From Herpetosiphonaceae bacterium (GTDB lineage Bacteria; Chloroflexota; Chloroflexia; Chloroflexales; Herpetosiphonaceae): DNA of 64,000 nucleotides. Below are positions 10,428 to 51,609 of the stretch, one piece after another. The stretch spans positions 1-64,000 of the forward strand of contig JABXJS010000037.1 of NCBI GenBank assembly GCA_013538855.1. Direction: 5' to 3'. The position numbers and the translations under genes were made by a program. Under the pieces are notes generated by a model that was given only the letters and a program-made list of their open reading frames with translations, was not told the DNA's origin and searched no databases. Numbering within the stretch: the first letter of the stretch is position 1; the number at the start of each line of letters is the position of its first letter.

Positions 10428-11384
10428 CTAGCCGGTGCGAATCCGCAGTTTGCGCATCGCGTCGATGATGCCGTGCTGGAGCGTGCTAAATGTTGTAATG
10501 CCGTGTAGGTCAATACCAAGGCTCACCAGGGTCTGAGCGATCTCGGGACGAATGCCGGTCAGCATGACATCGGCACCAAGCAGCTGCACAGCCTGCGCCG
10601 AGCGCAATAGCACAGCAGCCACCTGCGTGTCGATCACGGGCACGCCGGTGATATCCATAATGGCGATCTGCGCCCGCTGCGCACCAACGCCCTCAAGCAG
10701 CGTCTCCATCACCTTGTTCACGCGCCGTGAGTCGATCGAACCGATTAGCGGCATAACCACGATCTCATCGGTGATCGGAATGAGCGGCGTCGATAGCTCC
10801 TCAAGGATATTGGCCTGGAGACGAATCAGGTCCGCCTGCAAGCGCTCGCGCTCCGCCGCATCCAGCTGGCGCGCCCGCACCTCGGCGCGTAGGTTGATCT
10901 CGGTCATGACCAGCTCCGACAGCTCGCGTAAAATATCCAGCTCGTCATCGGTCCACTGGCGCGGCTTCGTGTCGATGACGCAGAACGAGCCAAGCTGAAG
11001 GTTGTCAGTGGTGGTCAGCGGCATGCCAGCGTAGCTAATCACGCCGAGGTCGGGGATGGCCAAGTTATCCCGCACCAAGGCCGTCTCTGGCGCATTGTCC
11101 ACCACCAGCGGCTGGCCCGATGTCACAACATGCTGACAAAACGAGTGCGAGAGCGGTGTCTCACGCCGCGAGGCCCAGGGTTCCTGCAGACCAACAAAGC
11201 TCTTAAAAAACTGGCGGTCTGACTCAACTAGTGAGACCAACGAGACCGGCGCATTTAAAATCTTCGATGCTAGACGTGTCAGACGATCAAGCGCTGGGTC
11301 GATCAAGTCGTTGACCAGCCCTAAATCGCGCAGCCGCTGTAGTCGCTGAGGGTCGTTGAGAATCGCATCGGGGGAGTTGGCCAT
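10428..11384 (-). CDS. GAF-STAS domain protein (RsbR-like)
   Basis: A 318-residue cytoplasmic protein. Residues about 25-170 form a GAF domain (LSHSFCQHVV, YAGMPL, GSFCVIDTKPRQW). A coiled linker near 165-195 leads to a STAS domain at about 200-310 (STPLIPITDEIVVMPLIG, IMDITGVPVIDT). The order matches RsbR-type stressosome scaffold proteins, whose STAS threonine is phosphorylated by RsbT. An AAGGA site precedes the ATG. It is terminator-bounded and probably single. A possible RsbT-like partner is coded in the chemosensory operon at 48249-48656; a link between them is inference only. Confidence 0.85.
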   Translation of the reverse strand: MANSPDAILNDPQRLQRLRDLGLVNDLIDPALDRLTRLASKILNAPVSLVSLVESDRQFFKSFVGLQEPWASRRETPLSHSFCQHVVTSGQPLVVDNAPETALVRDNLAIPDLGVISYAGMPLTTTDNLQLGSFCVIDTKPRQWTDDELDILRELSELVMTEINLRAEVRARQLDAAERERLQADLIRLQANILEELSTPLIPITDEIVVMPLIGSIDSRRVNKVMETLLEGVGAQRAQIAIMDITGVPVIDTQVAAVLLRSAQAVQLLGADVMLTGIRPEIAQTLVSLGIDLHGITTFSTLQHGIIDAMRKLRIRTG

Positions 11385-41664: not shown

Positions 41665-42674
41665 ATCGTCGTGCAGCCCAATCGATCAGCAGCGCGACAG
41701 GCACAAGCCGGCCCTCAAGCGCGCCGCTTTTCTAAACTTAAGCAACTTGCTCCACAAAGCCGCAGCAGCAGTCGGCACACAAAAAACGCCGCGCTGGCCA
41801 TCACGGCGGGCTGGCGCAACCACGGGCGGCCTTGGCGCTGGTGGGGCACGGCTGCGACTATGCAGGCATAGCTAGCCACAACCACGGTGCAGACTTCTTA
41901 ACCCTCCTTGAGCGAGAGCACGCCGGGTCGCCTGGGCTGAACAGCGCGCAGCGCTCGCTAGCAGCGGTATGGGCGCACGCCGACGCGCCAGAACCCAGCG
42001 ACAGCGCACAACTACGGCTACGCAGCCAAGTGCGCTAAAAAAACAGCGGCGTTGTACTCCGTTATGGCCTGGATGTGCTTCAGGTGCGCACATAGTGATC
42101 GGTAACACCGCTTGGTGCTGAGCACAGATGTATGCACAAAGCGGCTAGCTCGCTACAGAATCATTCGGCAGTATCTATGCTTTCGCGCGTACAGGTAGCG
42201 CAACAGCTATGCTACCAAAGCTTCGATATTATCATACATATCGCTATACGATACCAAGGAATGATTAATTAGGGCAAGAAATCCCAATATGCTTGATAGA
42301 AAGACTTTTATAGATATGCATTTTTCAGCCTATGCAGTTAGTAGGTCAATGTTTTAATATATCAACCTTGTACAAAATAATCATTTGCAACAAAAAAACA
42401 GTAAACGTTATTACGAAATCCAATATTCAGCCAAAATTTTATTAAAGCCAAATTCCTAACACAGCTCCATGAACAATAGTACCGTAACCATGTAGTACGC
42501 ATCTGTTCGCACAGGTAATCCAATATCCTATATCTTCAGTAGTTCAGCAGGGTATTAAATGGTTTAGTGCTCAAAGCTCCAAAAAAAACCTCTGTAGCGA
42601 CATTAACACCGAAAATTTGCACGCTGCATGCTATTGTAGGCGCAGAAAACCGCATATCGGAAGGATGCAGGCCC
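41665..42674. other. Gene-free 1-kb gap
   Basis: No intact gene is supported. The first half to about 42170 is GC-rich and repeat-like, including the dispersed repeat at 41975-42035. The second half to about 42560 is strongly AT-rich with many stops in every frame. The end carries the leader of the receiver remnant. Confidence 0.7.
41975..42035. repeat. Dispersed intergenic repeat, copy A
   Basis: About 60 bases beginning GCACGCCGACGCGCCAGAA closely match 51665-51723 in the same orientation, with a few substitutions and small gaps. Confidence 0.85.
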
Positions 42675-42863
42675 ATGATCAGCCCAACATGTTTGCACGG
42701 CTGGAGCATTCTCATCGTTGAAGACACGCGCGATATTCAAACCCTGCGCAGCCGGATTGTGCGCCAAGCTGGAGCAACTGCGGCGGTAGCAGACACGCGG
42801 GAGGCAGCGCTGCAGATCGTAGCCACCCAGCGGATCGACTGTATTCTGCTGGACATCCTCTGA
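42675..42863 (+). pseudogene. Truncated response-regulator receiver domain
   Basis: A 62-residue frame with the first half of a receiver: acidic pocket in SILIVEDTRD and the phospho-acceptor Asp in CILLDIL, then a stop. The second half of the fold, with the Thr and Lys residues and helices 3-5, is missing and is not found in other frames downstream. AAGGATG lies upstream. It sits 146 bases before the chemosensory operon and may be a decayed CheY-like gene. Confidence 0.7.
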
Positions 42864-43008: not shown

Positions 43009-44862
43009 ATGAACGTACTCAACAACCTCACGATTCGGACGAAGCTGATCGGCCAAGCGATCGTCGTACTGGCGCTGATCATCACCATGGCTGCCGTTGT
43101 ATACAACAGCGTCCTCGATACCCAAGAGCACGAGCGCTGGGTCACGCACACCTACCAAGTGATCGGCAACGGCGACACAATGCTGGCGCAAGTTTTGAGC
43201 ATGCAGACGGGCTATCGTGGCTTTTTGATCGTTGGTGATGAGAGCTATCTGAGCCACTACAACAACGGGCTGCGCAACTATCAACAGCTGCTCGCCGACA
43301 CCAAGCAGCTCGTTAGCGACAACCCAGCGCAGCTAGCCCGGCTTGAGCAGATCGACCGAGAGCTGACGACGCTACGCAGCGAGGTGTTTGATCAAGGCAT
43401 CGAGCTACGCCGCCAAGTTGCCGCTGGCACCACCGACTTAACCGATCTCGTGCGGCTAGAGCCACAGAGCAAGACCGGCATCGACAGTGTGCGCGAGCAA
43501 CTCGACGCGTTCACCTCGGCTGAGGAGCAGCTGCTGGCCACGCGCACCGCTGAGGCAACCCAGGCCGCAGCCACGCTCAAGGCCACGATCTTTGGCATGA
43601 CCGCAGCGACGATCATCCTGATGCTGGGCCTTGTGCTTTTGATCGCCACCAGCATCAGCCGCCGCGTTGGCATGGTGGCCAGCGCCGCGACCGGCATCGC
43701 CGCCGGGCGCTTGAACGACAGCTATGCGCTGCCAAGCGGGCGCGATGAGATTGGCACGCTGGCCGACGCCTTCGCGCACATGGCCGACACCATCCGCGAC
43801 CACATCAACGAGCAGCAGCGCGCCAACGAGGAGCTGCGCGCCGCCAGCGAAACCAAAGTGGCCAAAGAGTACCTCGAAGAGGTCGTGCGCACCTACAGCA
43901 CCTTTGCCGCCGATGTCGCCGCCGGCAACCTCTCGACGCGCCTCAACATCAACGGCAGCAACGACGAGCTGAGCATGCTTGGCCGCAACCTCAACCATAT
44001 GGTCGAGAGCCTGCACACGATCACGCTGCAGGTCAAAGAGACCAACACCGCCATCGCCGCCGCCGCCGCCGAAATTTTAGCGGCGACAACGCAGCAGGCC
44101 GCCGCCGCCAACGAGCAGTCAGCGGCGATCTCGCAGACCTCGACCACGATTGAAGAGATCAAGGTCATCGCCACCCAGACCGCGCACCAAGCCGACCAGG
44201 TGGCCCGCGACAGCCAGAACGCGCTGGTGGCCGCCCGCCAAGGCACGCAGGCCGTTGAGGACACCGTGCACGGCATGGGCCAGATCCGCCAGCGCGTCGA
44301 GAGCATCGCGCAAACGATCCTGGGCCTAGCCGAGCAGACCCAGACCATCGGCGATATCATCACCGCCGTCAACCAGCTCTCCGATCAGAGCAACCTGCTG
44401 GCGCTCAACGCCGCCATCGAGGCCGCCCGCGCCGGCGAGCAGGGCAAGAGCTTCGCCGTGGTGGCCCAGCACGTCCGCGATCTCGCCGAGCGCTCCAAGG
44501 CCGCCACGGCGCAGGTCCGCGAAATCCTCGGCGAAATTCAGCGCTCAACCAACAACGCCGTGCTGGTGACCGACGAGGGCACCAAGGGCGTCGAGGTTGG
44601 CGCGAACCTGGCCCAGCAGGCCGGGCAGGTGATTCACCGTATCGCAGCGGAGGTGGAGCAGGGTGCCCAGGCCAACATCCAGATGGCCGCAGCGGCCCAG
44701 CAGCAGACCGCTGGCATGGAGCAGATCGGCCAGGCCATGAACTCTATTCATCAGGCGACCACGCAGACGCTGGCCAGCACGCGCCAGGCCGAGCAAGCCG
44801 CCCAGGACCTGCACAAGCTCGCCAACGCCCTGCAGCAGACCGTCGCCATCTACCGCCTGTAG
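43009..44862 (+). CDS. Methyl-accepting chemotaxis protein with CHASE3-like sensor
   Basis: A 617-residue transducer. Transmembrane helices near 12-33 and 200-222 flank a periplasmic CHASE3-type domain ([21 protein letters not shown]). One HAMP region follows the second helix and a second HAMP-like stretch ([14 protein letters not shown]) precedes the long helical signalling domain. The hairpin tip is [52 protein letters not shown] precedes the ATG. The signal sensed is unknown. It heads the chemosensory operon. Confidence 0.94.
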
Positions 44863-44914
44863 CCGCCGCAGCACCCGCCAGTGGCTGAGCATAGATACCA
44901 GGGAGGGCTAGCCC

Positions 44915-45445
44915 ATGACAACGCCAGCGTACACCGAAGGCGAGCAGCGCATTCTGCGCGAGCGCGCCCAACTGCTGGCCCAGCAGCCAGCGCAGACCAC
45001 GCTTATGCAAGGCGAGGAGCTGGTTGTTTTTCGCCTCGGCGCAAGCAGCTACGCCGTCGCCGCCCGCTGGGTGCGCGAGGTCTACCCGCTGCAGGCGTGG
45101 GTGCGCCTGCCAGGCACGCCAAGCTTCATCGCCGGGCTGGCCAACGTGCGCAGCCAGCTGCTCAGCGTGATTGATATTCGCCCGCTGCTGGATCAGCCCG
45201 CCGCGCCGCCGAGCACGACGGCGGTGGGACTAGTGCTGCGCAGCGCTGGCCGTGAGATCGTGCTGCTGGCCGACAGCGTCGAGGACGTGCGCCGCAGCGA
45301 CAGCGAGCTGATGGGGCTTGTCTCGCAGCAAAATGGCCGAGCCGTAGCCTGGGTGCGTGGGCTAGACCAGCGCATGACCATGATTTTAGATGCGCGCCAG
45401 CTCATGGACGACCAGCGCCTGATTGTTGATGCCGATGCGCTCTAA
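44915..45445 (+). CDS. cheW: CheW-like coupling protein 1
   Basis: A 176-residue CheW: residues about 30-165 form the SH3-like fold (LVVFRLGASSYAVAARWVREVYPL, PSFIAGLANVRSQLLSVIDIRPLLD, IVLLADSVEDVRRSD). An N-terminal helix of about 30 residues is extra. GGAGGG precedes the ATG. It couples the receptor to CheA. A second CheW lies downstream. Confidence 0.93.
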   Translation: MTTPAYTEGEQRILRERAQLLAQQPAQTTLMQGEELVVFRLGASSYAVAARWVREVYPLQAWVRLPGTPSFIAGLANVRSQLLSVIDIRPLLDQPAAPPSTTAVGLVLRSAGREIVLLADSVEDVRRSDSELMGLVSQQNGRAVAWVRGLDQRMTMILDARQLMDDQRLIVDADAL

Positions 45446-45496
45446 GCCGCAGCCTGCGTCACCGTCGCGCCTACGGCTCAGAAGAACGAGTATACG

Positions 45497-47857
45497 ATGC
45501 TGACAGATGCGCAAATTATGGCTGCTGTGCTAGCAGCGTTTCAAGACGAGCAGGCCGAGCACTGCCAAACAATCACCCAGCTGCTGCTTGATCTCGAGCA
45601 GCACCCGGCGGCGGAGCACAAAGAGCTGCTCGATCAGCTCTTCCGCGAGGCCCACAGCCTCAAGGGTGGCGCACGTGCCGCTGGGCAGCCCGAGGTCGAG
45701 CAGATCGCCCATGCGATGGAGGACTTATTCAGCGCCGTGCGCCAGGGCCGCCTAGCGCTGACGCCAGACACCTGCGACCCGATCTATGCGGCACTGCACG
45801 AGATCGGGGCGGTGATGGCCCAGGTTGGCGCAAAAGCGCCCATCGACAGCGCCGCCGCCGCAGCCGTCGTCGCCAGACTAGAGGCTGTGGTGAGTGCTCA
45901 GGCCGACGCGCTGCCAGTCGTAGCGAGCAGCCCAGCGCCAGCCGCCGCGCCCGCCAGCACAGCGCCGCCAGAGCACAGCGACAGCGCCGCGCCCGCCCCC
46001 AAGGCCGATAGCCTCTCGGTGCGCGTCTCCATCGCCACACTCGACACCTTGCTCAACGAGACCGGCGAGCTGCTGGCCTATACCGTGCGGGCGCAGCAGC
46101 GCAAGCAGCAGGTGCAGGAGTTCGGCGCGCTGCCGATGCGCTGGCGGCGCACCGCGCATCAAGTGCGGCCAATTATTGGCAAGCTCCAGTCGCTGGTGGA
46201 GACCGTCCAGCCGACCGTGCACTACCTTGAGGGCCGCCAGGGCTTCGGCTCCAACAGCAGCCATAGTCCGCTGGGCAGCCGCCTGAGCGAGCACGACCTC
46301 CAGGCGCTTGTCGAGGCATTTGTGCAGGCCGACACGCTGATCAGCGAGCTTGAGCGGCGGCTGAAGGCGCACCTGCTGGAGACCAGCGAGGATCATGCGC
46401 GCCTCGCGGCCGTGACTGATCGGCTACACGACCAGATTCGGCGGACGCGGATGCTGCCGCTGGCGACAATTCTCAACCCCCTGCGCCTCCAAGTGCGCGA
46501 CATGGTCCGCTCGGCCGACAAGCAGGCGTACATCATCATCGACGATGGCGGTGCCGAGGCCGACCGCCAGGTGCTCGACGCGCTGCGCGATGTGCTGCTG
46601 CACATGGTGCGCAACGCCGTTGACCATGGCATCGAGCCGCCCGCTGAGCGCACGGCGCAGGGCAAGCCAGCCGAGGGGCAGATCAAGGTGCTCAGCCGCG
46701 TCAACAATGACCGGCTCAACCTGGTGATCGAAGATGATGGCGCTGGCATCGATACGGCGGCGATCCGGCACAAAGCCCAGGCGCTCGGGCTACACTCCGA
46801 GGCCGAGCTACACGCGCTGAGCACCAGCGAGGTGCTGGACTTGATTTTTCTGCCGGGCCTGAGCACCAGCGCAGTAGTCAACAACTTATCGGGGCGTGGC
46901 GTGGGGCTAGACATTGTGCGCACGCAGCTCCAGCGTATCCAGGGCCACATCAGCATCCATAGCGTTGCCGGCCAGGGCACGCGCTTCGAGCTCAGCGTGC
47001 CGCTCTCGCTCACCAGCGCCCAGAGCCTGCTGCTGCAGGTAGGCGCAGAGCAGTATGTGGTGCCGCTTGACGCCGTGCAGCGGATCATCGCCGTTGAGCC
47101 AGAGCAGATGTGCGTCATCGAAGGCCAGCCAAGCATCATCTACCAAGGTCGGCCGACGCTGCTTGTGCAGCTTGCAGCTGTGCTTAACGCAGGGACGACG
47201 CCCACACCAAGCAAGCTGCGCGTCGGGCAAGCAGCGCTCGTGGTGGTGCTCGGCACCCATGAGCGGCAAGTCGCCTGCCAGGTCGACGCCGTGCTCGGCC
47301 AGCACGAGCTGGTCATCCATCGGCTGCCAGAGCCGCTGCGCCGCGTGCGCTATATCTCCAGCGCCACGATCATGGCCGATGGAGCCGTCGTGCCGATCCT
47401 CGATGTCGTCGATGTCATCCGCGGCGCGCTGGGCCTGAGCCACACATTCGTGGCCGAGGTCGAGCCAGCGCCGAGTCAGCGGCGCTGCCGCGTGCTGGTC
47501 GTTGACGATTCGCTGACCACGCGCACGCTGCAGAAGAACATTCTTGAGGCAGCGGGCTACAGCGTGGCCCAGGCCGTCGATGGCCAGGAGGCGCTAGAGA
47601 TGCTGCGCACGCTACTCGCCGACGGTGGCTGCGACGTGGTGCTGAGCGATATCGACATGCCGCGCCTCAACGGCTTTGAGCTGACCAGCCAGATTCGCGC
47701 CGACGAGCGCATGGAGCACCTGCCAATTATCTTGGTTACATCGCTTGACACTGCAGCGGATCGCGAGCGCGGCATCGCTGCTGGAGCAGACGCGTACATT
47801 GTCAAGCGCAACTTTGATCAGCGCGTGCTGCTTGACACCATCAAGCAGCTCACATAG
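45497..47857 (+). CDS. cheA: Hybrid chemotaxis kinase CheA with C-terminal receiver
   Basis: A 786-residue kinase. The HPt domain carries His 53 (FREAHSLKGGARAAG). A Pro/Ala linker replaces a clear CheY-binding P2 domain. P3 dimerisation near 170-320 and the ATPase domain with N box HMVRNAVDHGIEPP, G1 DDGAGID and G2 GRGVGLDIVRTQL follow. A CheW-like domain (about 500-640) precedes a receiver (about 660-786) with phospho-acceptor Asp in VVLSDIDMP. The hybrid form is usual in Frz- and Pil-type systems rather than flagellar ones. Confidence 0.95.
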   Translation: MLTDAQIMAAVLAAFQDEQAEHCQTITQLLLDLEQHPAAEHKELLDQLFREAHSLKGGARAAGQPEVEQIAHAMEDLFSAVRQGRLALTPDTCDPIYAALHEIGAVMAQVGAKAPIDSAAAAAVVARLEAVVSAQADALPVVASSPAPAAAPASTAPPEHSDSAAPAPKADSLSVRVSIATLDTLLNETGELLAYTVRAQQRKQQVQEFGALPMRWRRTAHQVRPIIGKLQSLVETVQPTVHYLEGRQGFGSNSSHSPLGSRLSEHDLQALVEAFVQADTLISELERRLKAHLLETSEDHARLAAVTDRLHDQIRRTRMLPLATILNPLRLQVRDMVRSADKQAYIIIDDGGAEADRQVLDALRDVLLHMVRNAVDHGIEPPAERTAQGKPAEGQIKVLSRVNNDRLNLVIEDDGAGIDTAAIRHKAQALGLHSEAELHALSTSEVLDLIFLPGLSTSAVVNNLSGRGVGLDIVRTQLQRIQGHISIHSVAGQGTRFELSVPLSLTSAQSLLLQVGAEQYVVPLDAVQRIIAVEPEQMCVIEGQPSIIYQGRPTLLVQLAAVLNAGTTPTPSKLRVGQAALVVVLGTHERQVACQVDAVLGQHELVIHRLPEPLRRVRYISSATIMADGAVVPILDVVDVIRGALGLSHTFVAEVEPAPSQRRCRVLVVDDSLTTRTLQKNILEAAGYSVAQAVDGQEALEMLRTLLADGGCDVVLSDIDMPRLNGFELTSQIRADERMEHLPIILVTSLDTAADRERGIAAGADAYIVKRNFDQRVLLDTIKQLT

Positions 47858-47869
47858 AAGGAGACCAGC

Positions 47870-48241
47870 ATGGTCAAGCACATCCTTATCGTTGAAGACA
47901 GCCGCACGCAGGCGATCCGCCTCAAGCTGGAGCTAGAGCGCTACGATGTAGAGGTGAACATCGCCACCACCGGCACGGCCGGGCTACGCGCTGCGCGCAC
48001 CCAAATACCCGACGCAATCGTCCTCGATGTTGAGCTGCCAGAGATGAACGGCTTCTCCGTGTGCCAGGCGGTCAAGGCCGATCCACGCACAGCTCACGTT
48101 CCCGTTGTGATGCTCACCCGCCGTGATCTCGCCGCCGACGCGCTCGAAGGTCTCGAGGTGGGAGCGGACGACTACATCCCCAAGGATACGTTTGCCGAGC
48201 AGAATCTGATCGAGGCGCTGCGGCATCTGGGACTGCTGTGA
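47870..48241 (+). CDS. CheY-like single-domain response regulator
   Basis: A 123-residue receiver. Acidic pocket EDS near residue 10, phospho-acceptor Asp in AIVLDVELPEMNG, Thr in VVMLTRRD and Lys in YIPKDTF. GAAGGAG precedes the ATG, 12 bases after cheA. It has no output domain and is a likely diffusible output of the pathway, for instance to a motility motor or pilus. Confidence 0.93.
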   Translation: MVKHILIVEDSRTQAIRLKLELERYDVEVNIATTGTAGLRAARTQIPDAIVLDVELPEMNGFSVCQAVKADPRTAHVPVVMLTRRDLAADALEGLEVGADDYIPKDTFAEQNLIEALRHLGLL

Positions 48242-48248
48242 GGTTGTG

Positions 48249-48656
48249 ATGAATGTAGACACCGCTTTCGACCAAAAAGAGTTTCGGGTAGACAACGAGT
48301 ACGACGTCATTGTGCTGCGGCAGGCGCTTCGCACGCTTGGCCGCATCCACGGCCTCGGCTTGGTGCAGCAGGCGCGCATCACCTCGGCGATCAGCGATAT
48401 CGCACGCAATATCTTGCGCTACCACTGGAGCATCGCCGTTGCGATCTATGTGAACATCAGCGCCGACCAGCGCTCGCTCGATGTGGTGTGCCATCCAGTC
48501 AGCGACCACCTCCACCCATCCTATGCTGAGTTCGACCGCCTCATCGGCATGGATGCCGTCCAGAAGCTCGTTGATGAGACCAGCCTCACCAACAGCGATG
48601 GGCGCTTTCTGCTGCTGATGCGCGTCTGGATGGAAAGCGAGCAGAAGCATGGATAG
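48249..48656 (+). CDS. RsbT-like serine kinase-type protein, degenerate ATP lid
   Basis: A 135-residue protein resembling RsbT/anti-sigma-type ATPases: YDVIVLRQALRTLGRIHGLGLVQQARITSAISDIARNILRY matches the N-box helix. The usual glycine-rich lid is replaced by RLIGMDAVQKLVDETSL, although the DGRFLLLMRVWM end strand is kept. ATP binding is therefore uncertain. GAGGT precedes the ATG; a GTG one codon earlier is possible. It overlaps the next CheW by 8 bases, so it belongs to the operon. Confidence 0.7.
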   Translation: MNVDTAFDQKEFRVDNEYDVIVLRQALRTLGRIHGLGLVQQARITSAISDIARNILRYHWSIAVAIYVNISADQRSLDVVCHPVSDHLHPSYAEFDRLIGMDAVQKLVDETSLTNSDGRFLLLMRVWMESEQKHG

Positions 48657-49122
48657 CGCTCAAGCGCAGCCGCAGCCCGCCAGCCTGCCGCTGTCCACTG
48701 TCGTCTTCGAGCTAGCGACGCAGCGCTACGGGCTGCCAGTCACCCTGGTGCGCGAGATTGTGCTGGTGCCCGCGCTGCTGGAGCTAGCCGGGGCCAGCCT
48801 GCTGATCTGCGGCCTGCTCAACTACCGTGGTGCCTATGTGCCAGTGATCGATGGGCGCGCTATGGTCGGCGCGGCCAGCCTGCCTAGCATCGACAACCAG
48901 ATCATCCTCGTCGGTGCGGACCAGCCAGAGCTAGGTCTGCTGGTCGATCACGTGGTGGGCGTGTACGATCTTGATGCACGCCAGTCCACAGCGCTTGATG
49001 CGCAGGCGGCCGCCGCGTTTCTCGCCGCCATCGCCACCACTGCCGATGGACCAGTGCTGCTGCTGGACTATCCCGCCCTCCAGGCGCTGGCTCCGGCGCT
49101 GAGCCAAGCGAGCCAGCGATGA
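48649..49122 (+). CDS. CheW-like coupling protein 2
   Basis: A 157-residue CheW domain protein (STVVFELATQRYGLPVTLVREIVLVP, LLICGLLNYRGAYVPVIDGRAMVG, LGLLVDHVVGVYDLD). It overlaps the gene before by 8 bases and the cheB after by 4. In two-CheW operons one often serves the receptor array and one the modification enzymes; which is which cannot be told here. Confidence 0.9.
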   Translation: MDSAQAQPQPASLPLSTVVFELATQRYGLPVTLVREIVLVPALLELAGASLLICGLLNYRGAYVPVIDGRAMVGAASLPSIDNQIILVGADQPELGLLVDHVVGVYDLDARQSTALDAQAAAAFLAAIATTADGPVLLLDYPALQALAPALSQASQR

Positions 49123-50153
49123 GACGCACGGATCAGAGCGCGCCTGTGCGCGTCCTGCTGGTTGAGGCCCGCCGCGATCAGCAACAAGTGCTTGGCGCAC
49201 TCATCGCAGGCGCGCGGCTGGAGCTTGTTGGCACGGTGGGCACAGCCACCGAGGCGCTTGCGGCAGTTGCACGCCTCCGCCCCGAGGTTGTGGCGATCAA
49301 CGTGCAGCTGTACGGCGGCGATGGCTTAGCGCTCACCCGCCAGATCATGCAGCGCTGTCCAACGCCGATTGTGCTGTATGACGCAGGCCTGCGCAGCTGC
49401 ACGCCCGACGAGGCCACAGCAGCTGGTGCGCTGGCCCTGGTGCAGCACCCCACCAGCCGCGCCGCCGCTGACACGAGCAGCCAGCGCGACATGTTTGTGA
49501 AGACCCTGGCGGTGATGGCCGGGGTGCCGGTGGTCACGCGCTTTGCCACACGCACAGCGCCAGCGCCGCAACTGCGCAGCGCTGGCTATCAACTGCTGGC
49601 CATCGCCGCCTCAACCGGCGGACCCAGCGCTGTTCAGCGCATCGTGTGCCAGCTCGGGCCGCGCTTTCCGCTGCCGATCATCATCGTGCAGCATATCGCC
49701 GACACCTTTGTGCAGTCGCTCGCCGAGTGGCTGATCAGCGTTACGGCCATGCCTGTCAATGTTGTGCAGCAAGAGCTAGCGCTTCAGCCAGGCCAGCTCT
49801 ACCTGGCTGAGTCGCGGCACCACCTGATGGTCCCGCGCCGCGGCTGGGTGACCGTGCGCCCAGGCGACCAGATCACCGATGCCTACTGCCCCAGCGCCGA
49901 CCGCATGTTCCACTCGGTGGCGCAGATCTACGGCCAGCACGCGATCGGCCTCATCCTCTCGGGCATGGGCGATGATGGCGCACGCGGCCTGGCCGCGCTG
50001 CATCAGGCTGGCGGCCTGACCCTGGCGCAAAACGAGGCGAGCTGTGTTGTGTACGGGATGCCGCAGGCCGCCGTGCGGGCCAACGCCGTCGACTACAGCG
50101 ACGATTTAGACCAGCTCGCCGCGCTCATTGAGCGCCACACTGCCGTGAGGTGA
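49119..50153 (+). CDS. cheB: CheB methylesterase with degenerate receiver
   Basis: A 344-residue protein. The receiver (about 10-125) lacks its phospho-acceptor Asp, which is Asn 61 (VAINVQLYGGDG), and the acidic pocket is Glu-Ala-Arg-Arg-Asp rather than Asp-Asp. The C-terminal methylesterase keeps its triad: Ser 165 (IAASTGGPS), His 192 (IVQHIADTF) and Asp near 285 (SGMGDDGARG). It should demethylate receptor glutamates but probably is not activated by CheA phosphorylation. The 4-base overlap couples it to cheW 2. Confidence 0.93.
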   Translation: MRRTDQSAPVRVLLVEARRDQQQVLGALIAGARLELVGTVGTATEALAAVARLRPEVVAINVQLYGGDGLALTRQIMQRCPTPIVLYDAGLRSCTPDEATAAGALALVQHPTSRAAADTSSQRDMFVKTLAVMAGVPVVTRFATRTAPAPQLRSAGYQLLAIAASTGGPSAVQRIVCQLGPRFPLPIIIVQHIADTFVQSLAEWLISVTAMPVNVVQQELALQPGQLYLAESRHHLMVPRRGWVTVRPGDQITDAYCPSADRMFHSVAQIYGQHAIGLILSGMGDDGARGLAALHQAGGLTLAQNEASCVVYGMPQAAVRANAVDYSDDLDQLAALIERHTAVR

Positions 50154-50157
50154 CGCA

Positions 50158-51609
50158 ATGCAAGAGCTTCAACTCGATGAACAGCAGTATCAGCGCCTGC
50201 GCGCGCTTGTGCAGCTGCGCAGCGGCCTGTTCTACGCCGACCACAAGCGCGCTGACTTGCTCCAGGGGCTGCAGCGCACCAGCCGCGAGTGTGGCATTAG
50301 CGACCCCGACCAGCTCTACGCTGGCCTCAGCTCCAACGGCCTGCTGTGGGACACGCTGATCCTGCACCTGACGATTGGCGAGACCTACTTTTTTCGCAAT
50401 CGGCCACAGTTCGCCGCCCTGCGCAGCACAATCCTGCCGGAGCTGATGGAGCGCCGCGCCATGAGCCAGCATATGCGCATCTGGAGCGCTGGCTGTGCCA
50501 CCGGCGAGGAGCCGTACTCGATTGCGATGGAGCTACGTGAGCTGTTCCAGCACAGCCCTGGCTGGCTGGCAAGCATTCTGGCCACCGATATCAACCCCGC
50601 CTTTCTCGCTCGCGCCCAGGCCGGGCTGTACGGCGCATGGTCGTTCCGCGATACCCCCGATGCAGTGCGCGACCGCTACTTTGTGCCCCAGCAAAATCGC
50701 TGGCGCATCAAGCCAGAGATCAGCCAGATGGTACGCTTCATGCGGCTCAATCTCGCCGAGCCAAGCTATCCCAGCCTTGTCAGCGGCACGTGTGCCATGG
50801 ACCTGATTGTCTGCCGCAATGTGACGATCTACTTCGATGCGGCCACAACGCGGGCGGTGGTCGAGCGGCTGTACCACGCGCTCACGCCTGGCGGCTGGCT
50901 CATCGTGGGCCACGCCGAGCCGCAGGCCAGCATCTACCACGCCTTTGAGGTGCAGAACTTTCCGGACACGGTCGTGTATCGCAAGCCGCTGAGTGCGCCG
51001 ATGATCTTTACCGACCAGCCGCTGGAGCTACCACCGCCGCCAAGCAGTCTCGCAAGCCCCGGCGCGCCCCCACCACAGCCTATGCCCAGCGCGGCCAATC
51101 CGCGCACCACGCCCCCAAAGCCCGCCGCGCCACAGCCCCGGCATGTTCCAGCACCAGGCCCCGCGCCAGCGCAGTCAGCAGCACCACAGCCCGCCCAGAT
51201 CGGCGTGGCGCAGCTGCTGGCCCAGGCCCAGCAGGCTGCCGATCAAGGCAACTGGCAGGCGGCCGCCGCGCTGTGCCTACAAATCTTGGAGCGCGAGCCG
51301 CTGCTGGTGGCCGCGCACTATCTCCAGGCCCAGCTGTTCGAGCAGCAGGATGACCTCGATCAAGCCCTGGCCGCCTACCGCAAGACCACCTACTTAGATC
51401 GCTCGTTTGTGCTGGGGATGCTCGGCATGGGCCACATCTGGCGCAAAAAAGGCCGCAGCGCCGAGGCGCGTCGCTGCTATCGCAACGCCTTGAATCAGCT
51501 CCAGCAGCTGCCGCCGCAGCAAACCGTCGCCGGCAGCGCTGCCCTGACTGCCGCCGAGCTTGTCGCGGCCGTGCGCCACCTGCTGCACACGCTCGCCGAT
51601 AAGCCTTGA
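50158..51609 (+). CDS. cheR: CheR methyltransferase with C-terminal TPR domain
   Basis: A 483-residue protein. Residues 1-275 form a CheR MCP methyltransferase with SAM loop IWSAGCATGEEPYSIAM and the LIVCRNVTIYF motif. A Pro-rich linker near 285-345 leads to TPR repeats (about 350-450, LLAQAQQAADQGNWQAAAALC, LFEQQDDLDQALAAYRKTTYLDRS). TPR-fused CheR proteins are frequent in non-flagellar chemosensory systems. GAGGTGA precedes the ATG. It closes the operon. Confidence 0.93.
   Translation: MQELQLDEQQYQRLRALVQLRSGLFYADHKRADLLQGLQRTSRECGISDPDQLYAGLSSNGLLWDTLILHLTIGETYFFRNRPQFAALRSTILPELMERRAMSQHMRIWSAGCATGEEPYSIAMELRELFQHSPGWLASILATDINPAFLARAQAGLYGAWSFRDTPDAVRDRYFVPQQNRWRIKPEISQMVRFMRLNLAEPSYPSLVSGTCAMDLIVCRNVTIYFDAATTRAVVERLYHALTPGGWLIVGHAEPQASIYHAFEVQNFPDTVVYRKPLSAPMIFTDQPLELPPPPSSLASPGAPPPQPMPSAANPRTTPPKPAAPQPRHVPAPGPAPAQSAAPQPAQIGVAQLLAQAQQAADQGNWQAAAALCLQILEREPLLVAAHYLQAQLFEQQDDLDQALAAYRKTTYLDRSFVLGMLGMGHIWRKKGRSAEARRCYRNALNQLQQLPPQQTVAGSAALTAAELVAAVRHLLHTLADKP

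Follow-up and report, generated by a model that had tools for sequence, protein, structure and literature searches.

Gene content of the chemosensory operon

The window, i.e., the whole stretch of 64,000 nucleotides analysed here, contains a compact chemosensory (Che) operon composed of the following features:

43009-51609, + strand: whole Che operon (MCP, CheW, CheA-REC, CheY, RsbT-like protein, CheW, CheB, CheR-TPR)
43009-44862, + strand: methyl-accepting chemotaxis protein (MCP), CHASE3-HAMP-MCPsignal (Pfam MCPsignal 3.9e-38, CHASE3 1.8e-32)
44915-45445, + strand: CheW1 (Pfam CheW 1.6e-21)
45497-47857, + strand: CheA hybrid kinase with Hpt, dimerisation, HATPase, CheW and C-terminal REC domains (Pfam)
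47870-48241, + strand: CheY, a single receiver domain (Pfam Response_reg 2.9e-23)
48249-48656, + strand: RsbT-like pseudo-GHKL protein of 135 aa, without G1 box, ATP lid and G2 box, with the RsbT residues of alpha1 and alpha2 present
48649-49122, + strand: CheW2 (Pfam CheW 1.9e-22)
49119-50153, + strand: CheB, REC and methylesterase (Pfam CheB_methylest 1.8e-56)
50158-51609, + strand: CheR methyltransferase with C-terminal TPR (Pfam CheR 5.5e-52, TPR)

The MCP gene likely starts at the ATG at position 43009, which is preceded by a ribosome-binding-like AAGGA, while the RsbT-like gene begins 8 bases past cheY and overlaps the start of cheW2 with its last 8 bases. All gene calls behind the content and order that an earlier note on this DNA had claimed for the operon hold in the Pfam comparison. 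The same is true for its description as non-flagellar in type: the operon combines CheA-REC, two CheW, CheB and CheR-TPR, as expected for ACF/Wsp/Frz-like systems, no flagellar genes are located near it, and a genome-wide search found no flagellin in the whole genome to which the window belongs. This genome also holds five T2SSE/PilT-type ATPase matches and two CheA genes. Just upstream of the MCP (42567-42863, + strand), a receiver-domain fragment runs into a stop codon immediately behind the phospho-acceptor motif CILLDIL and probably represents the remnant of a truncated receiver. Several related operons have intact CheY genes at the matching place, their orthology to this fragment not being clear.

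Identity and fold of the RsbT-like protein

Single-sequence searches with the 48249-48656 product gave no significant match in Pfam, NCBIfam or the PDB (TIGR-Tas, at 0.17, and further weak Pfam hits were dismissed as chance matches), and its profile, searched alone, retrieved no PDB sequence. Because these database searches were empty, homology was assessed from a match within the genome, from profile-profile alignment and from fold comparison. The protein matches the RsbT encoded in its own genome with an E value of 1.1e-7, and a profile of 13 relatives aligned by hhalign to a profile of 8 true RsbTs over 127 columns, with a probability of 99.4% and an E value of 3.1e-21. An AlphaFold2 model built on the alignment of the same 13 relatives reached a pLDDT of 87.4 and a pTM of 0.81, with elements in the order beta-alpha-alpha-beta-beta-alpha-beta-beta. 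Its closest PDB structures in Foldseek were RsbW (3.5e-7), UsfX and SpoIIAB, with E values from 3.5e-7 to 3e-4. Judged by sequence and by the predicted structure, the product is a true RsbT relative with the RsbT/RsbW fold, in agreement with the identity given in the earlier note; the structure prediction which that note had proposed as a check produced a confident RsbW/SpoIIAB-type model. In the tree, the relatives group together in a single clade distinct from true RsbTs (support 88/81; 89% of bootstrap trees), in which several branches are long.

Loss of the ATP site and retention of docking residues

Residues were compared between 18 relatives and 38 RsbTs, 30 of them from Bacillota, using RsbT numbering. 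The G1 box (DxGxG), the ATP lid and the G2 box (GxGxG) are absent from all 18 relatives, in which no room is left for them. None of the RsbT-invariant ATP-site residues Gly82, Gly99, Gly103 and Thr124 is kept in any relative, and Gly80 and Gly101 are each present in at most one. Asp78 was found in 0/18 in one alignment, whereas another alignment places an Asp near this column in most relatives, without the glycines, the alignment of the deleted part being uncertain. The N-box Asn49 is present in the window protein only (SDIARN) and missing in 17 of the 18. Consequently, the description of a kept N-box and a changed lid stands for the Asn of the window protein, but not for the family, where this Asn is lost and the G1 box, lid and G2 box are deleted. 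Where RsbT has Glu45, a possible catalytic base, 15 of the 18 relatives have Glu and the window protein has Asp.

In contrast to the ATP site, six residues are invariant among the 18 relatives (Arg19, Arg23, Gln36, Ala37, Ser44 and Arg48), and Arg38 is found in 17 of them; Arg19 and Arg23 correspond to R24 and R28 of the window protein. This set is specific for RsbT, since RsbW proteins of the same genomes have Arg19 and Ser44 and lack Arg23, Gln36 and Arg48. In B. subtilis RsbT, Arg19, Arg23 and Asn24 are implicated in RsbU binding and are part of the modelled RsbT-RsbU interface (PMC12143880). The kept Arg residues of the relatives could also serve the fold instead of docking.

Distribution, genomic context and selection

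In a profile search of 158 Chloroflexia genomes, the RsbT-like protein was found in 17, all with open frames and every one carrying it in at least one che operon, which confirms its membership in this operon. The holders include Chloroflexus and, presumably, Roseiflexus; the orthologue taken to be from Chloroflexus is encoded at G007:C1:1166037-1166399. The gene follows cheA or cheY and nearly always precedes cheW2, with neighbouring genes often overlapping or touching. CheW2 is encoded directly downstream in 15 of the 17 genomes; in one of the other two (G068) the contig ends before the position of cheW2, and in the most distant holder (G087) the gene is flanked by cheY and a gene for a hybrid histidine kinase. 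A second copy, outside any Che operon, was observed in one genome (G018:C279; L049:7428-7838, - strand), with an OmpR-type regulator, a PAS histidine kinase, a PAS protein and a PAS-GGDEF-EAL protein as neighbours.

The survey of gene order proposed in the earlier note thus shows the RsbT-like gene recurring in related Che operons, and it also revealed 11 sister operons (CheA approximately 50-56% identical) without the gene or any relic of it and with cheW2 present. When the corresponding slot was searched for divergent copies in 13 loci, cheW2 was found at every locus and the RsbT-like protein in the two positive controls, but in none of the 11 negative sister operons. As these operons hold the other Che genes, the RsbT-like gene can be regarded as an accessory, and the CheA tree within Chloroflexia requires four changes in its presence or absence. 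The slot between cheA and cheW2 in one genome (G040; L141:8530-8990) holds a repeated gtgggggccaggcccccaccccccc segment, with no detectable RsbT-like frame. Among close orthologues, dN/dS amounts to 0.07-0.21 for the RsbT-like gene, compared with 0.10-0.29 for CheW2 and 0.07-0.14 for CheA, a range indicating that the gene is maintained as a protein under purifying selection.

True RsbT and candidate partners

The genome of the window encodes a true RsbT (G000:C80) with intact N, G1 and G2 boxes, directly after RsbS. True RsbT is also encoded in all 17 holder genomes, which is weak evidence for a connection, because most of the order has it too. No RsbS or RsbR genes occur within the Che operon, and operons with the RsbT-like gene have no conserved STAS or phosphatase gene beside them. 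RsbU_N, the best-known RsbT-binding domain, had no match in the genome of the window, so that, as far as its sequence can tell, this domain is absent or unrecognisable there.

Several individual candidates were rejected. The window includes a GAF-STAS protein (10428-11384, - strand) that resembles the RsbR of stressosomes, with the motifs VIDTQVA and GIRPEIAQT. The earlier note had proposed a pull-down with this protein; a link to the operon finds no support, as the gene is separated from it by 32 kb, is on the opposite strand and has the features of a typical RsbR, for which the genome has a separate, normal RsbT. In Chloroflexus, the operon has a PAS-STAS gene upstream, which neither Roseiflexus nor the window conserves. 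The genome of the window also harbours a second Che operon (L148, G000:C148:8000-27000) with CheW, MCP, CheA, CheY, CheB and CheR. At its 3' side, genes for a SpoIIE-type phosphatase, a TPR protein, an RsbW-type HATPase with intact motifs and a STAS protein form a full partner-switch cassette; the phosphatase was dismissed as a partner, having no RsbU_N domain and a short N-terminus. We take the orthologues of this second operon, L150 (G007) and L151 (G043), to be from Chloroflexus and Herpetosiphon, respectively. With such cassettes, wiring between chemosensory and partner-switch systems emerges as a theme in Chloroflexia.

Possible roles of the RsbT-like protein

Classical RsbT is a kinase for STAS proteins. 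In addition, free RsbT activates RsbU by binding (PMC12143880), so that a model for how an RsbT could act without kinase activity is already at hand. The combination of a lost nucleotide site and a kept docking helix points to a function by binding, and we somewhat favour the explanation that the 48249-48656 product is a kinase-dead RsbT paralogue serving as a non-catalytic docking subunit in one class of chemosensory operons of Chloroflexales. Such a protein would retain only the binding half of RsbT's two roles, acting by protein docking alone with the alpha1 face through which RsbT contacts its partners. In this way, it would connect the signalling state of CheA/CheY with a partner that has an RsbT-type docking site, for which a STAS protein or a regulator with a helical linker would be candidates. 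The suggested link to STAS partners or sigma control is therefore possible through docking alone.

A considerable, though smaller, chance has to be given to the alternative in which the protein modulates phosphotransfer in the chemosensory array as an accessory bound to CheA, CheW2 or CheY, similarly to CheS and with no link to sigma or STAS proteins. The position right before cheW2 and after cheA or cheY fits well with such a role, as do the lack of any conserved partner-switch gene in the operon and the CheS precedent (PMC12654446). However, the kept residues are the RsbT-specific ones for partner docking, which a new surface for CheA or CheW would not need, and sister operons without the gene exist. 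It is rather doubtful, but worth considering, that the protein is a catalytically dead RsbT mimic which occupies RsbT docking sites under CheA/CheY control and thereby connects the chemosensory array with the stressosome or a different partner-switch module; if true, this would be a pseudokinase bridge joining two major bacterial sensing machines.

An active serine/threonine kinase switch of the RsbT type is very improbable. The RsbT fold, the N-box Asn of the window protein and the acidic residue at the Glu45 position would agree with it, but with the nucleotide-binding motifs missing in every relative and the Asn in nearly all, the notion of an RsbT-type switch phosphorylating STAS proteins is not supported. 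Hardly any room is left for a decaying, non-functional RsbT duplicate, since the lost catalytic motifs and the absence of the gene from some sister operons are outweighed by the low dN/dS, the open frames in 17 genomes, the confident fold and the invariant residues.

If the docking subunit is the correct reading, a lineage that keeps the docking residues without the ATP site represents a natural separation of the kinase and binding-activator roles of RsbT, and offers a testable pseudokinase.

Comparison with known systems

Wsp/Frz-like (ACF-type) operons are non-flagellar and, like the operon in the window, contain CheA-REC, two CheW, CheR-TPR and CheB; unlike in the window operon, we know of no RsbT-like member in them. 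With RsbT of stressosomes (Bacillus, Listeria and the RsbRST of Chloroflexales), the protein shares the fold, a similar length and R19, R23, Q36, A37, R38, S44 and R48, but it differs in lacking G1, lid, G2 and, outside the window, the N-box Asn, and in being encoded in a Che operon and not beside RsbS. The anti-sigma kinases RsbW, SpoIIAB and UsfX are its closest solved folds, yet RsbW has an intact ATP site and, in the same genomes, lacks R23, Q36 and R48, three residues which the protein has in common with RsbT.

Within chemosensory systems, the nearest parallel is CheS of rhizobia (Sinorhizobium/Agrobacterium), a STAS protein that binds CheA and alters its handling of CheY (PMC12654446). 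Both are proteins of partner-switch families recruited as small extra members of a Che operon, although CheS, as a STAS domain, belongs to the opposite side of the kinase-substrate pair and is found in flagellar Che operons. Che systems and partner-switch components also meet in one operon at the Shewanella che1 locus, with the proteins CrsR/CrsA (PMC9855816), and in early F7 clusters, with anti-sigma antagonists and a serine phosphatase (PMC7184735). These encode anti-sigma, STAS and phosphatase parts, and a lone RsbT without its ATP site was not found reported there. In the titles and abstract openings searched, a range largely outside the subscription literature, neither an RsbT in a Che operon nor an RsbT without an ATP site was described. 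Calling the arrangement not standard, as the earlier note did, is thus fair for RsbT, but not for partner-switch proteins in Che operons in general, where CheS, CrsR/CrsA and F7 are precedents. With the operon described here, an RsbT-type case from non-flagellated Chloroflexales joins the few chemosensory systems known to be connected with partner-switch proteins.
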